Below are positions 26,419 to 50,703 of a stretch of 64,000 bases of DNA, piece by piece. The translations under genes and the position numbers were made by a program. The notes under the pieces are model-generated. The model was not told the DNA's origin and searched no databases. It worked only from the letters and a program-made list of their open reading frames with translations. Positions within the stretch are counted from its first letter, which is position 1. Each line of letters starts with the position of its first letter. Source of the DNA: Sandaracinus amylolyticus (lineage in GTDB: Bacteria > Myxococcota_A > Polyangia > Polyangiales > Sandaracinaceae); assembly GCF_021631985.1 (NCBI RefSeq), contig NZ_CP070225.1:806001-870000 (forward strand), given 5' to 3'.

Positions 26419-26898
26419 GTGGAGTCGATCGGAAGGTGGTTGAGGCACGAGCGCGAGGTCCGGCAGATCTCGCTCGAAGAGCTCGCGCAGACGACCCGCA
26501 TCCCGCTGAAGATGCTGCAGCACCTGGAAGAGGATCGTCACGATCATCTCCCAGGGGAGGTGTTCGCTCGCGGCTTCCTCAAGAGCTACGCGCGCGCCAT
26601 CGGCGTGCCGGAGGGCGAGGCGGTCGAGCGTTGGGCGCAGCACCGTCGCCCCCAGATCGCGGCGCCCGCCCCGATCGCCGCGGCGACCATCACGCCGCCC
26701 GAGCGCAGCCGTCGCTTCGGCATCGCGATCGCGCTCGTGATCCTGCTGATCCTGTTCACGCTCGCGCTCTCGATCGTGCTCCGGCCGCGTCACCGCGACG
26801 CGCCCGTCGAGCTGAGCTGCCCCGGGGGGCTGTGCGCCCCCCTGTCGACCCCCGAGCGCGCGACCACGGTGCTCGACGCGGAGACGGCGCGGACTTAG
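26419..26898 (+). CDS. RodZ-like helix-turn-helix membrane protein (short)
   Basis: The 159-residue protein has the RodZ-type N-terminal HTH at about residues 1-75, with LRHEREVRQISLEELAQTT, the LEEDRHDHLPGEVFARGF motif and KSYARAIG. One membrane segment follows at about 96-120, then a tail of only about 40 residues. Full RodZ proteins have a much longer periplasmic domain. The GTG chosen has GGAGAGG six bases upstream; a GTG at 26377 overlapping the previous stop is an alternative. Residues 131-146 are encoded by a copy of the stop-anchored hairpin repeat, which may have replaced an older C-terminus. The recO start is nine bases downstream. Confidence 0.82.
   Translation: MESIGRWLRHEREVRQISLEELAQTTRIPLKMLQHLEEDRHDHLPGEVFARGFLKSYARAIGVPEGEAVERWAQHRRPQIAAPAPIAAATITPPERSRRFGIAIALVILLILFTLALSIVLRPRHRDAPVELSCPGGLCAPLSTPERATTVLDAETART
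26811..26857 (+). repeat. Hairpin repeat copy B, inside the rodZ-like coding sequence
   Basis: This 47-bp block matches the copy at 49834-49880 (opposite strand) at 44 of 47 positions. GGGGGGC (26824-26830) and GCCCCCC (26836-26842) form a 7-bp all-GC stem with loop TGTGC. In other copies the TGA in GCTGAGC is a stop codon; here it is out of frame and the gene reads through. Confidence 0.9.
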
Positions 26899-26907
26899 AC
26901 GCCGCGT

Positions 26908-27636
26908 GTGGCGACGCAGACCGAGGTGACGCACGCGGTCGTCCTGCGAAGCGTCGCGTACGGCGAGGCGGATCGCATCCTCACGCTGTTGACCGAGGCA
27001 CACGGGAAGGTGTCGCTGATGGCGCGCAACGCGCGCGCGAGCCAGCGACGCTTCCCGGGGGGCGCCCTCGAGCCGTTCGGGTTGATCGAGATCGAGATGG
27101 CGCTGGGGCGCGGGGACGTGGGACGCCTCGCGAGCGCGCGCTTGGTGCGGGGGTTCCCTCGGCTGCTCGGGTCGCTCGAGTGCATGCGCGAGGCGGGTGC
27201 GGGCATCGAGCTTCTGCGCGACGTGGTGCCGCCCCGCGAGCCCGACGTGCGCTGGCTGATCGAGATCGAGCGCTTCTTCGAGACGCTCGACGCGCGCGCG
27301 CCGGAGCCCGGGCCCGAGGTGCGGCTCGCGTTCGCGCTGCGCATCCTCGCGCTCATGGGGCTCGCGCCTCGACTCGACGCGTGCGGCCGGTGCGGGCTGC
27401 GGGCCGAGGAGCGCGCGGCGCTGTTCGACGCGGGGCTCGGCGCGATCGTGTGTCGCGCGTGCGGAGGTGGTCCGCTGCACCTCGCGGCGAGCACGCGGGC
27501 GCGCATGATCGCGAGCCAACGCGATGCGTGGACCGACGCGGTGCAGGGCTGGGACGATCGCGCGCGGAACGAGGCGGAGAGCGCGATCGACGCGTTCGTG
27601 CGACGGCACGTGGGGCGGACGCGCAGTGAAGGGTGA
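26908..27636 (+). CDS. recO: DNA repair protein RecO
   Basis: The 242-residue protein matches RecO, which anneals single strands and loads RecA with RecR in recombinational repair. The N-terminal OB fold carries VLRSVAYGEADRILTLLT. The C-terminal helical part has the zinc-ligand pattern CGRCG (about residue 155) and CRACG (about 185). It starts with GTG, nine bases after the RodZ-like gene, and is followed by the DUF971 gene within eight bases. The order suggests one transcript from the promoter at 25447. Confidence 0.93.
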   Translation: MATQTEVTHAVVLRSVAYGEADRILTLLTEAHGKVSLMARNARASQRRFPGGALEPFGLIEIEMALGRGDVGRLASARLVRGFPRLLGSLECMREAGAGIELLRDVVPPREPDVRWLIEIERFFETLDARAPEPGPEVRLAFALRILALMGLAPRLDACGRCGLRAEERAALFDAGLGAIVCRACGGGPLHLAASTRARMIASQRDAWTDAVQGWDDRARNEAESAIDAFVRRHVGRTRSEG

Positions 27637-37935: not shown

Positions 37936-38553
37936 ATGACGGCGATCAAGATCTGCGGGATCACTCGGCTCGAGGACGCGGAGCACGCGCTCTCGCTCGG
38001 CGTCGACGCGATCGGGCTCAACTTCTGGCCGCGTAGCAAGCGGCGCGTGGACCACGCGGTCGCGCGCGAGATCGTGCGGCGCGCGAAGGATCGTGCGCGG
38101 GTGGTCGCGATCGTGGTGGACGCGACGCGCGCGGAGATCGCCGACGTTCGCGAGTCGACCGGCATCCGCTGGGTGCAGCTGCACGGCGACGAGGACGCGA
38201 CGTTCACGCGCGCGCTGCTCCCGTGGGCGTACCAGGCGGTCCGGGCACGCGGCGACGAGGGCTTCCGCATCGCGATGGCCGCGCCGGGGATCGAGGTGCT
38301 GCTCGACGCGAGCGTGCCGGGCGAGAAGGGCGGCACGGGCATGATGGCGGACTGGTCGCTCGCAGCGCGTGTCGCGCGGGCGCGGCCGCTCTGGCTCGCC
38401 GGCGGGCTCACGGCGGAGAACGTGGCCGAGGGGATCCGCGTGGTGCGGCCGATGGGCGTCGACTCCGCGAGCGGCGTGGAGCGCGCGCCGGGCGTGAAGG
38501 ACCCCGCGAAGGTCGAAGCGTTCGTGCGCGCGGTGCGCAACGCGTCGCGCTGA
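37936..38553 (+). CDS. trpF: Phosphoribosylanthranilate isomerase
   Basis: The 205-residue enzyme catalyses the Amadori rearrangement in tryptophan synthesis. The catalytic Cys is in IKICGIT at the N-terminus and the general acid Asp is in LLDASV. GGTGMMADW and LAGGL bind phosphate. It is not beside trpA or trpB: three unrelated genes intervene. An in-frame GTG at 37906 is less likely as start. Its TGA stop is the first triplet of a hairpin repeat. Confidence 0.95.
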   Translation: MTAIKICGITRLEDAEHALSLGVDAIGLNFWPRSKRRVDHAVAREIVRRAKDRARVVAIVVDATRAEIADVRESTGIRWVQLHGDEDATFTRALLPWAYQAVRARGDEGFRIAMAAPGIEVLLDASVPGEKGGTGMMADWSLAARVARARPLWLAGGLTAENVAEGIRVVRPMGVDSASGVERAPGVKDPAKVEAFVRAVRNASR

Positions 38554-38599
38554 GCTTCCCCGCGGGCTGCGCGCCCCCACGCTTCGAGCGTTCGCTCGA
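38549..38599 (+). repeat. Hairpin repeat copy C at the trpF stop, with an added stem-loop
   Basis: GCTGAGCTTCCCC-GCGGGCTGCGCGCCCCC (38549-38579) matches copy A with a small gap; its TGA at 38551-38553 is the trpF stop. TCGAGC-GTTC-GCTCGA (38584-38599) adds a perfect 6-bp hairpin. The pair probably ends the trpF transcript. Confidence 0.8.
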
Positions 38600-43013: not shown

Positions 43014-44204
43014 ATGTCCACGTCGCTGCCCGGTCGCTTCGGTCCCTTCGGCGGCCGCTTCGTCGCCGAGACCCTGATCCCCGCGCTGGACGAGCTCGAG
43101 AGCGCCTACGCCTCCGCGCGTGCCGACGCGGCCTTCGAGGCGCGCCGGCTCGAGCTGCTCGCGCGCTGGGTGGGCCGGCCGACGCCGCTCTTCTTCGCCG
43201 AGAACCTCTCGCGCGAGGTGGGCGCGCGCGTGTGGCTGAAGCGCGAGGACCTCTGCCACACCGGCGCGCACAAGGTGAACAACACCGTCGGTCAGGTCCT
43301 CCTCGCCAAGCGGATGGGCAAGCCGCGCGTCATCGCGGAGACCGGCGCGGGCCAGCACGGCGTCGCGACCGCGACCGCGTGCGCGCTCCTGGGCCTGAAG
43401 TGCGAGGTCTTCATGGGCGCCGAGGACGTGCGGCGTCAGTCGCCCAACGTGCAGCGCATGGAGCTGCTCGGCGCGAAGGTCATCCCGGTCACGAGCGGCA
43501 GCGCGACGCTCAAGGACGCGATGAACGAGGCGATGCGCGACTGGGTCACGAACGTAGCGACCACGTACTACTGCGTGGGCTCGGTCGCGGGGCCGCATCC
43601 GTATCCCTCGATCGTGCGCGACTTCCAGCGCGTGATCGGCGACGAGGCGCGCGCGCAGCTCCTCACCGACGAGAACGTGCTGCCCGACGCGGTGGTCGCC
43701 GCGGTCGGCGGCGGCTCGAACGCGATGGGCATCTTCGCGGCGTTCGTCGACGACTCGAGCGTGAAGCTGATCGGCGTCGAGGCCGCGGGGCACGGCGTCG
43801 CGAGCGGCAAGCACGCCGCGACGCTCACCGCAGGCAAGCCCGGCGTGCTGCACGGGATGCGCACCTACGTGCTGCAGGACGAGGACGGACAGATCGTCGA
43901 GGCGCACTCGATCAGCGCGGGCCTCGACTATCCGGGCGTCGGTCCCGAGCACGCGTGGCTGCGCGACACCGGGCGTGCGCAGTACGTGAGCGTCGACGAC
44001 GAGGAAGCGCTCGCGGGGTTCCAGCTGCTCGCGCGCACCGAGGGCATCCTTCCCGCGCTCGAGAGCAGCCACGCGATCGCGGCGCTGCACGGCGTCGCGA
44101 AGCAGCTCTGCAAGGACGCGCGCATCCTCGTGTCGCTGAGCGGCCGCGGCGACAAGGACCTCAACACGGTGCGCGACGCGCTCGCCGCGCGCACTGCGCA
44201 CTGA
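43014..44204 (+). CDS. trpB: Tryptophan synthase beta chain
   Basis: The 396-residue PLP enzyme joins indole and serine. PLP-binding Lys87 is in [14 protein letters not shown] follows, and the phosphate loop is GGGSNAMG. The late SGRGDKD is typical. It belongs to the standard TrpB1 type that pairs with TrpA. The frame extends upstream, but [20 protein letters not shown] is the family N-terminus. Its TGA stop starts a hairpin repeat. Confidence 0.97.
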
Positions 44205-44240
44205 GCTTCCCGCGGCGCTGCGCGCGGGGCCCCAGCCCCG
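44202..44240 (+). repeat. Hairpin repeat copy D at the trpB stop
   Basis: TGAGCTTCCC-GCGGCGCTGCGCGC is a diverged copy of the stop-anchored repeat; its TGA is the trpB stop. CGGGGC-CCCA-GCCCCG (44225-44240) forms a 6-bp GC hairpin. It lies in the convergent gap to the gene at 44256. Confidence 0.7.
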
Positions 44241-44255
44241 CTTGCTCGATGCGCG

Positions 44256-49804: not shown

Positions 49805-49833
49805 CCCGCGAGCGGGCCGAGGACCCGCGCGCA

Positions 49834-49880
49834 GCTCGGGGGTCGACAGGGGGGCGCGCAGCCCCCAGGGGAAGCTCAGC
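49834..49880 (-). repeat. Hairpin repeat copy A at the IMPase-family stop
   Basis: Read on the minus strand the block begins GCTGAGC, its TGA (49878-49876) being the stop of the upstream gene. GGGGGC-TGCGC-GCCCCC forms a 6-bp GC hairpin. It matches copy B at 44 of 47 bases over 23 kb distance. Confidence 0.9.
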
Positions 49881-50703
49881 GCGACGGCTCATCGAGCAGC
49901 GCGAGCAGGTCCTTGTGGAAGAGCCCGTTCGACGCCACCGCGCCCCCGCCGAAGATCGTCGGCTGCCCGTCGAAGCTCGTCAGCACGCCGCCCGCTTCGT
50001 GCACCAGCACCGACGCCGCGCAGATGTCCCAGGGCATCACCGCGGGATCGATCATCGCGTCGACCTGACCGCGCAGGAGCCGGCGGTATCCGTCGAAATC
50101 ACCGAAGCCGCGCTGCGACTCGGTGCGCTCTCCGAGGCGCTGCAGCGCGGGCACCATCGCGGCGCCGGTGAACTGCTGCAGTGTGCCGTGCGAGATCGTC
50201 GCGTCCTCGAGCTTGCCCACGCGCGAGACCGCGAGCGGGCGCCCATTGCCCCACGCGCCATCGCCCCGCACTGCCCAGAAGAGATCCTCCGCGGCCGGCA
50301 TGTACGCGATCCCGAGCACCGGATGCCCGTCCGCGAGCAGGCCGAGCAGCACCGACCAGGTCTCGGTGCCGCGCACGAACGCGCGCGTGCCATCGATCGG
50401 ATCGAGCACCCAGCGCATGCCCGCGGTCTCGGGGCCGCTCTCGCCGGTCTCCTCGCCGAGGAACGCGGTGTCGGGATAACGGCGCCGGAGGAACCCGGAG
50501 AGGCGCTCTTCGACCGCGCGATCGGCCTCGGTCACCGGGGATCGATCGGGCTTGCGCTCGACGCGCGTGCGATCGGTCCAGCGGATCATCCCCGCTTCGT
50601 ACATCCGCCGCGCCGCGTCGCCGGCGACGAGCACCTCGTCGATCAGCTCGGCGAGCGCGCGCCGTCCGCCGATGCGATCGAGATCGAATCCCCCCTTGCT
50701 CAT
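49876..50703 (-). CDS. Inositol monophosphatase-family phosphatase
   Basis: The 275-residue Mg-dependent phosphatase carries GEETGE (metal Glu), WVLDPIDGTRAFVRG (metal and catalytic residues) and PWDICAASVLVHEAGG. It may act on inositol phosphate, histidinol phosphate or a related substrate; RAFVRG in place of NFVHG leans toward the histidinol-phosphatase branch. The start is the ATG before MSKGGFDLD; upstream in-frame sequence is out of character. The stop begins repeat copy A. Confidence 0.9.
   Translation of the reverse strand: MSKGGFDLDRIGGRRALAELIDEVLVAGDAARRMYEAGMIRWTDRTRVERKPDRSPVTEADRAVEERLSGFLRRRYPDTAFLGEETGESGPETAGMRWVLDPIDGTRAFVRGTETWSVLLGLLADGHPVLGIAYMPAAEDLFWAVRGDGAWGNGRPLAVSRVGKLEDATISHGTLQQFTGAAMVPALQRLGERTESQRGFGDFDGYRRLLRGQVDAMIDPAVMPWDICAASVLVHEAGGVLTSFDGQPTIFGGGAVASNGLFHKDLLALLDEPSR

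Follow-up and report, generated by a model that had tools for sequence, protein, structure and literature searches.

Short GC-rich palindromes that accumulate close to genes are best described for REP elements and REPINs with their RAYT transposase (TnpA_REP), which are present in many copies, in sense orientation and frequently no more than 15 nt from a stop codon (PMC2817692, PMC12306157). A fixed short head adjoins the stem of these elements, and REPs within 15 nt of the stop codon can stall ribosomes (PMC12306157). Rickettsia palindromic elements and other MITEs fused in frame constitute a second system, in which a palindromic mobile repeat is translated inside a conserved gene that lacks it in relatives, probably without consequence (PMC2229807). 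In addition, ribosome termination structures (RTS) are stable structures immediately behind the stop codon, and structures at this position govern re-initiation (PMC7518266). Finally, intrinsic (Rho-independent) terminators place a GC-rich hairpin after the gene; an E. coli study reports that such a signal is itself almost fully repressed when it follows the gene by only a few bp (PMC4824070).

The window, i.e. the whole analysed stretch of 64,000 nucleotides (G000:C1:806001-870000), is part of a 10.96-Mb genome of two contigs (G000) and harbors a repeat that resembles each of these systems in part. Taken as a whole, the case of the rodZ-like gene is probably explained by a lineage-specific in-frame insertion of 39 bp, in which a REP-like, stop-docked hairpin repeat entered the unconserved tail of the protein. 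The coordinates of the features concerned are compiled in Table 1.

Table 1. Features of the rodZ-like/recO locus and further repeat copies in the window.
Feature	Position	Strand	Basis
rodZ-like gene: HTH_25, one hydrophobic segment, short tail; GTG 26419 preferred, GTG 26377 possible	26419..26898	+	Pfam PF13413; orthologues
A-form repeat copy (only the 5' hairpin half), in frame within the rodZ-like gene	26811..26857	+	44/47, sister gap, absence in orthologues
CTGA before the element, out of frame (CTG AGC = Leu-Ser of VELS)	26812..26815	+	alignment with other copies; orthologue codons
Net 39-bp insertion	within about 26814-26857; precise borders ambiguous	+	39-bp gap in the sister genome
Hairpin GGGGGGC-TGTGC-GCCCCCC	26824..26842	+	folding; stem kept across copies
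recO, start 9 nt after the rodZ-like stop codon	26908..27636	+	Pfam RecO_N, RecO_C; NCBIfam TIGR00613
Divergent related copy directly 3' of a CTGA stop (CTGAGCTTCCCCGCGGGCTGCGCGCCCCC)	38550..38581	+	weak model match
Related copy (3' module) directly 3' of a CTGA stop	44199..44246	+	3' module match
Full-length A-form copy directly 3' of a stop codon; sister site empty	49807..49881	-	model search, docking and sister comparison

An earlier note on this DNA had matched the block at 26811-26857 to a segment at 49834-49880 at 44 of 47 bases, and a recount against the reverse complement of the latter gives the same three mismatches. This likeness far exceeds chance, and the inverted pair can be extended to 54 nt at 93%. 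The 19-nt core matches twice in the window as compared with 0.10 expected from shuffles, while across the whole genome a 20-mer with up to two mismatches yields 15 matches and its reversed control none; clear copies recovered by BLAST number about 20, all counts from pattern, BLAST and model searches being lower bounds. This is no chance pairing: the block belongs to a repeat that is dispersed over the whole genome and comes in three forms, A, B and C. A search of positions 26600-27100 against Rfam 15 matched no curated family up to E = 5, and an exact 21-mer had no match in a genome-contig collection from which records near the window are perhaps absent. Elsewhere in the window, positions 2457-2636 comprise a perfect tandem duplication of 90 bp, the copies of which are 100% identical and reflect either a very recent event or an assembly effect.

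The aligned A-form copies consist of CTGA, four variable nucleotides, CCCCGGGGGGCTGCGCGCCCCCC, TGTCGACCCCCGAGC and then GCTGCGCGCGGGTCCCCACCCGCTTGCG, which together make up two hairpins. A and B forms measure about 70 bp and the C form (GGAGGGGTCTTGGAAGACCCCTCC...) about 100 bp, and all three have a common 3' module. A covariance model recovered further copies, including the B form (GGGGGAGGCTGCGCGCCTCCCC), in G000 and in the same-genus genome G001, none in G002, and weak matches only elsewhere in the taxonomic family. Covariation within the stems provides weak evidence, as a single pair is compensated (U-A for C-G in three copies) and the others are nearly invariant. By itself, the 10-mer CTGAGYTTCC shows no enrichment relative to its reversed pattern, so that the repeat unit is the whole element. 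In some places the element forms tandem arrays (G000:C1:1179597-1179950 and G001:C1:3326135-3326425); since the species of the window has a single copy at the stop codon of the latter array, arrays expand locally. Matches of the 3' module number 68 in G000, 38 in G001, 12 in G004 and 23 in G008, with none in the reversed control. G004 and G008, which represent another genus of the family, carry their own post-stop multi-hairpin elements that end in the same 3' module (L173, L174, L179, L187, L190, L191), and hence this architecture predates the A and B forms.

The copies are normally docked immediately 3' of a stop codon and in sense orientation. The model search gave 29 loci, comprising A, B and three C forms; 27 of them begin at a stop codon closing a long open frame, the exceptions being the rodZ copy and L137, a copy without such a frame. 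The stop reads CTGA in 25 of the 27 docked loci as compared with 10 of 29 gene ends in the window. By manual count, 31 of 41 C copies in 40 further loci adjoin a stop codon, while in three the stop is more distant or falls within the element, and seven lack an upstream stop. With these seven copies, and with TTGA, TAG and TAA stops used as well, strict CTGA targeting fails for the C form. Downstream neighbours are oppositely oriented in 33 of 67 classified cases versus 8 of 29 in the window (the latter counted manually), and from this only modest excess it follows that the copies are not confined to operon ends. Two C-form copies deserve separate mention. At L216 (G000:C1, about 6357632-6357730, minus strand) the copy lies just before the native stop and brings about a real re-termination with the stop inside the element, the protein ending in FVPS in the sister and in FVSGRGHG here. 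At L222 (G000:C1, about 7662158, minus strand) the copy is apparently intragenic, with coding-like sequence in different frames on either side, and may disrupt its host gene.

As far as the rodZ-like gene is concerned, distant orthologues start to match close to GTG 26419 (residues 14-17 of the longer query, read from 26377), and the numbering of the repeat-encoded segment as residues 131-146 agrees with that start. Orthologues were matched in 36 of 38 genomes of relatives. Thirty loci were read, and in each of them conservation stops at VELS or a close variant, behind which a short unconserved tail follows; the insertion lies right after this last conserved motif. The gene of the sister genome G001 retains the same frame and stop codon and is 95% identical in the flanks of a 39-bp gap. 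Its tail reads VELSHATTVLDAETQRT up to the stop, that of the window VELS-CPGGLCAPLSTPER-ATTVLDAETART. In G007, from a related but different genus, it is IELSQASTQVLDARV, resembling the sister without the insertion. From both tails, and from all 29 orthologues of other genomes, in which the peptide is missing, the insertion-free state emerges as ancestral. The block is therefore, as judged by sequence comparison, a derived, lineage-specific, in-frame gain of 39 bp that added 13 residues to the protein and did not truncate it. The earlier note had proposed capture of a repeat in frame, to be recognized by its absence from orthologues and contradicted by distant ones conserving the peptide; the alignment finds the former throughout, and a search among the orthologues for the latter found none. 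Its description of the TGA in the repeat (26813-26815) as out of frame is likewise accurate, and so is that of a 7-bp all-GC hairpin before recO, with stem halves at 26824-26830 and 26836-26842. Identity with classical RodZ, defined by an N-terminal HTH, a transmembrane segment and a long periplasmic domain, was considered and rejected: HTH_25 is present, while the NCBIfam RodZ equivalog models match the N-terminal part only and far below cut-off.

Several other readings of the block have to be weighed against this insertion. The protein is indeed much shorter than typical RodZ, as had been remarked, which together with the N-terminal model matches and the new stop conferred by a C-form copy at L216 might suggest that a longer gene of RodZ type was cut short and given a new stop by the repeat. 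This part of the earlier note does not hold, as 29 of 29 orthologues from other genomes, order-wide, are similarly short and the insertion-free sister ends at the same stop; with shortness ancestral and the stop codon common to both, the insertion lengthened the protein, and re-termination is highly improbable. Even more remote is the notion that the segment represents ancestral coding sequence from which the non-coding copies arose: its 13 codons do read through without a stop, yet the peptide occurs in no orthologue and the other copies follow stop codons. The suggestion that the hairpin attenuates or tunes recO draws on two points: the hairpin precedes the recO start by about 65 nt in the same direction, and only 9 nt separate the two genes. 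On the contrary, the rodZ-like stop codon is located between the hairpin and the recO start, placing the hairpin within translated sequence; the terminator search at the rodZ copy returned neither a terminator-like site nor a U-tract; folds of the region are no stronger than those of shuffles; and the sister junction is built differently without any insertion, all of which renders the suggestion unlikely. As to this junction itself, the gap between the genes (26898-26908) is 37 nt longer in the sister (L059) and contains CCGGAGCGAGCTCCGG and the GAGGAAGGG motif.

Nineteen upstream flanks were located in G001, and the comparison with this genome covered 27 sites. Besides rodZ, 16 sister sites feature the stop codon without the element, with upstream flanks 85-99% identical, while nine sites are filled in both genomes and one is without an assigned state; for the window copies at 38550 and 44201 no sister sites were found, synteny being guessed. 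At L027 the same one-hairpin form as in rodZ constitutes a clean 41-bp insertion directly after TGA, and L029 and L017 are clean insertions too, L017 being the sole site where CTGA, looked for as a target-site duplication, recurs on both sides. Some sister sites display unrelated hairpins 3' of the stop (L019, L020, L140). At sites other than rodZ, loss of the element in G001 may be an alternative to its gain in G000. Of 47 C copies, only two had a filled sister partner when 27 G001 copies were compared. For six sites occupied in both genomes, the 4-nt spacer between stop and first hairpin differs at 15 of 24 positions in spite of upstream flanks mostly more than 90% identical, which points to independent insertion or conversion between copies as a possible origin of these differences. 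In the pair of sister species, nature has provided numerous sites with and without a hairpin adjoining the stop codon, which make both the spread of a REP-like repeat without a known transposase and the effect of a post-stop hairpin on expression amenable to testing.

How the element spreads, and why one copy resides in rodZ, can be outlined tentatively. The mobilising step would recognise CTGA in DNA, so that the out-of-frame CTGA in rodZ would be usable as well; the position of this copy suggests recognition of a DNA motif and not of translation termination, for which a single intragenic case is thin evidence. Docked copies would be kept since a hairpin behind the stop is harmless or useful, either as a ribosome-termination structure or as an mRNA 3' end, and by analogy they are proposed to act like other structures just behind stop codons. 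The off-target copy would have survived owing to a length that is a multiple of three, the lack of an in-frame stop and a dispensable, unconserved tail; being translated, it has lost the post-stop setting and is itself probably neutral. Three orthologues (L064, L071, L073) read CTGAGC or CTGAGT at the insertion site, so that CTGA may have been available at the site in the ancestor. In the sister the codons are CTC TCG, which opens the alternative that CTGA arrived with the element through GAGCT microhomology, a motif present on both sides of the junction.

With regard to the enzyme, the Y1 transposase (RAYT/IS200, PF01797) has no match in G000 and G001 in a search that was positive in 5 of 14 control genomes, and a RAYT/IS200 route would thus lack a resident enzyme in either genome. 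A Y2 transposase (PF04986), as for an IS91-like non-autonomous element, is unlikely to be the sole mobiliser, as it occurs once, on the second contig of G000, and is absent from G001, which has copies of its own. Without motif-specific transposition, selection might keep docked copies as post-stop structures while they spread through gene conversion, or through template switching where there is microhomology (CTGA, GAGCT), rodZ being a copying error. The missing Y1 transposase, the divergent spacers at orthologous filled sites, as conversion would give, the unrelated post-stop hairpins of the sister and GAGCT on both sides of the rodZ junction are in line with this possibility, while L027 and L029, inserted cleanly and directly behind TGA between intact flanks, and the frequent new placement needed where so few C copies have a filled partner, speak against it; on balance it is a doubtful but serious contender. 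Rather speculative is the far-reaching version of motif-directed insertion, namely a modular hairpin family that inserts immediately 3' of CTGA in sense orientation, uses stops as landing sites, is mechanistically distinct from RAYT/REP, MITE and known IS elements, and exposes its DNA motif in the off-target event at rodZ.

Among known systems, the terminator reading was dismissed: there is no U-tract at the rodZ copy, no T run follows the hairpins of other copies, the next gene often runs in the same direction, unlike at intrinsic terminators, and so short a distance from the gene would, by the E. coli study cited above, leave a terminator repressed. RTS agree in position with the docked copies and not with the rodZ copy, and they are a general folding feature of genes, whereas the present family is a dispersed, homologous mobile repeat. 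Rickettsia palindromic elements are set apart by description, with 105-146 bp versus 39 bp here and a different host phylum, and in-gene copies are a rare exception in the present family. In contrast to MITEs, the ends of the A form are not inverted repeats by inspection of the alignment, a 7-bp inverted match at L029 being a single case. The likeness to REP/REPIN comprises the many short extragenic palindromes, whereas the Y1 transposase is absent from both genomes, the head consists of CTGA, located at the stop codon of the host gene, and a 4-nt spacer of variable sequence instead of GT(A/G)G (PMC2817692), and each unit has two or three unlike hairpins with exchangeable 5' parts. In behaviour the family as a whole comes closest to REP sequences, and the rodZ copy to Rickettsia palindromic elements translated in frame. 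Since the tests for the REP transposase, the head motif and MITE terminal repeats were negative, the family is filed as a variant of the known REP-like kind, best as a REP-like, stop-docked mobile hairpin family.
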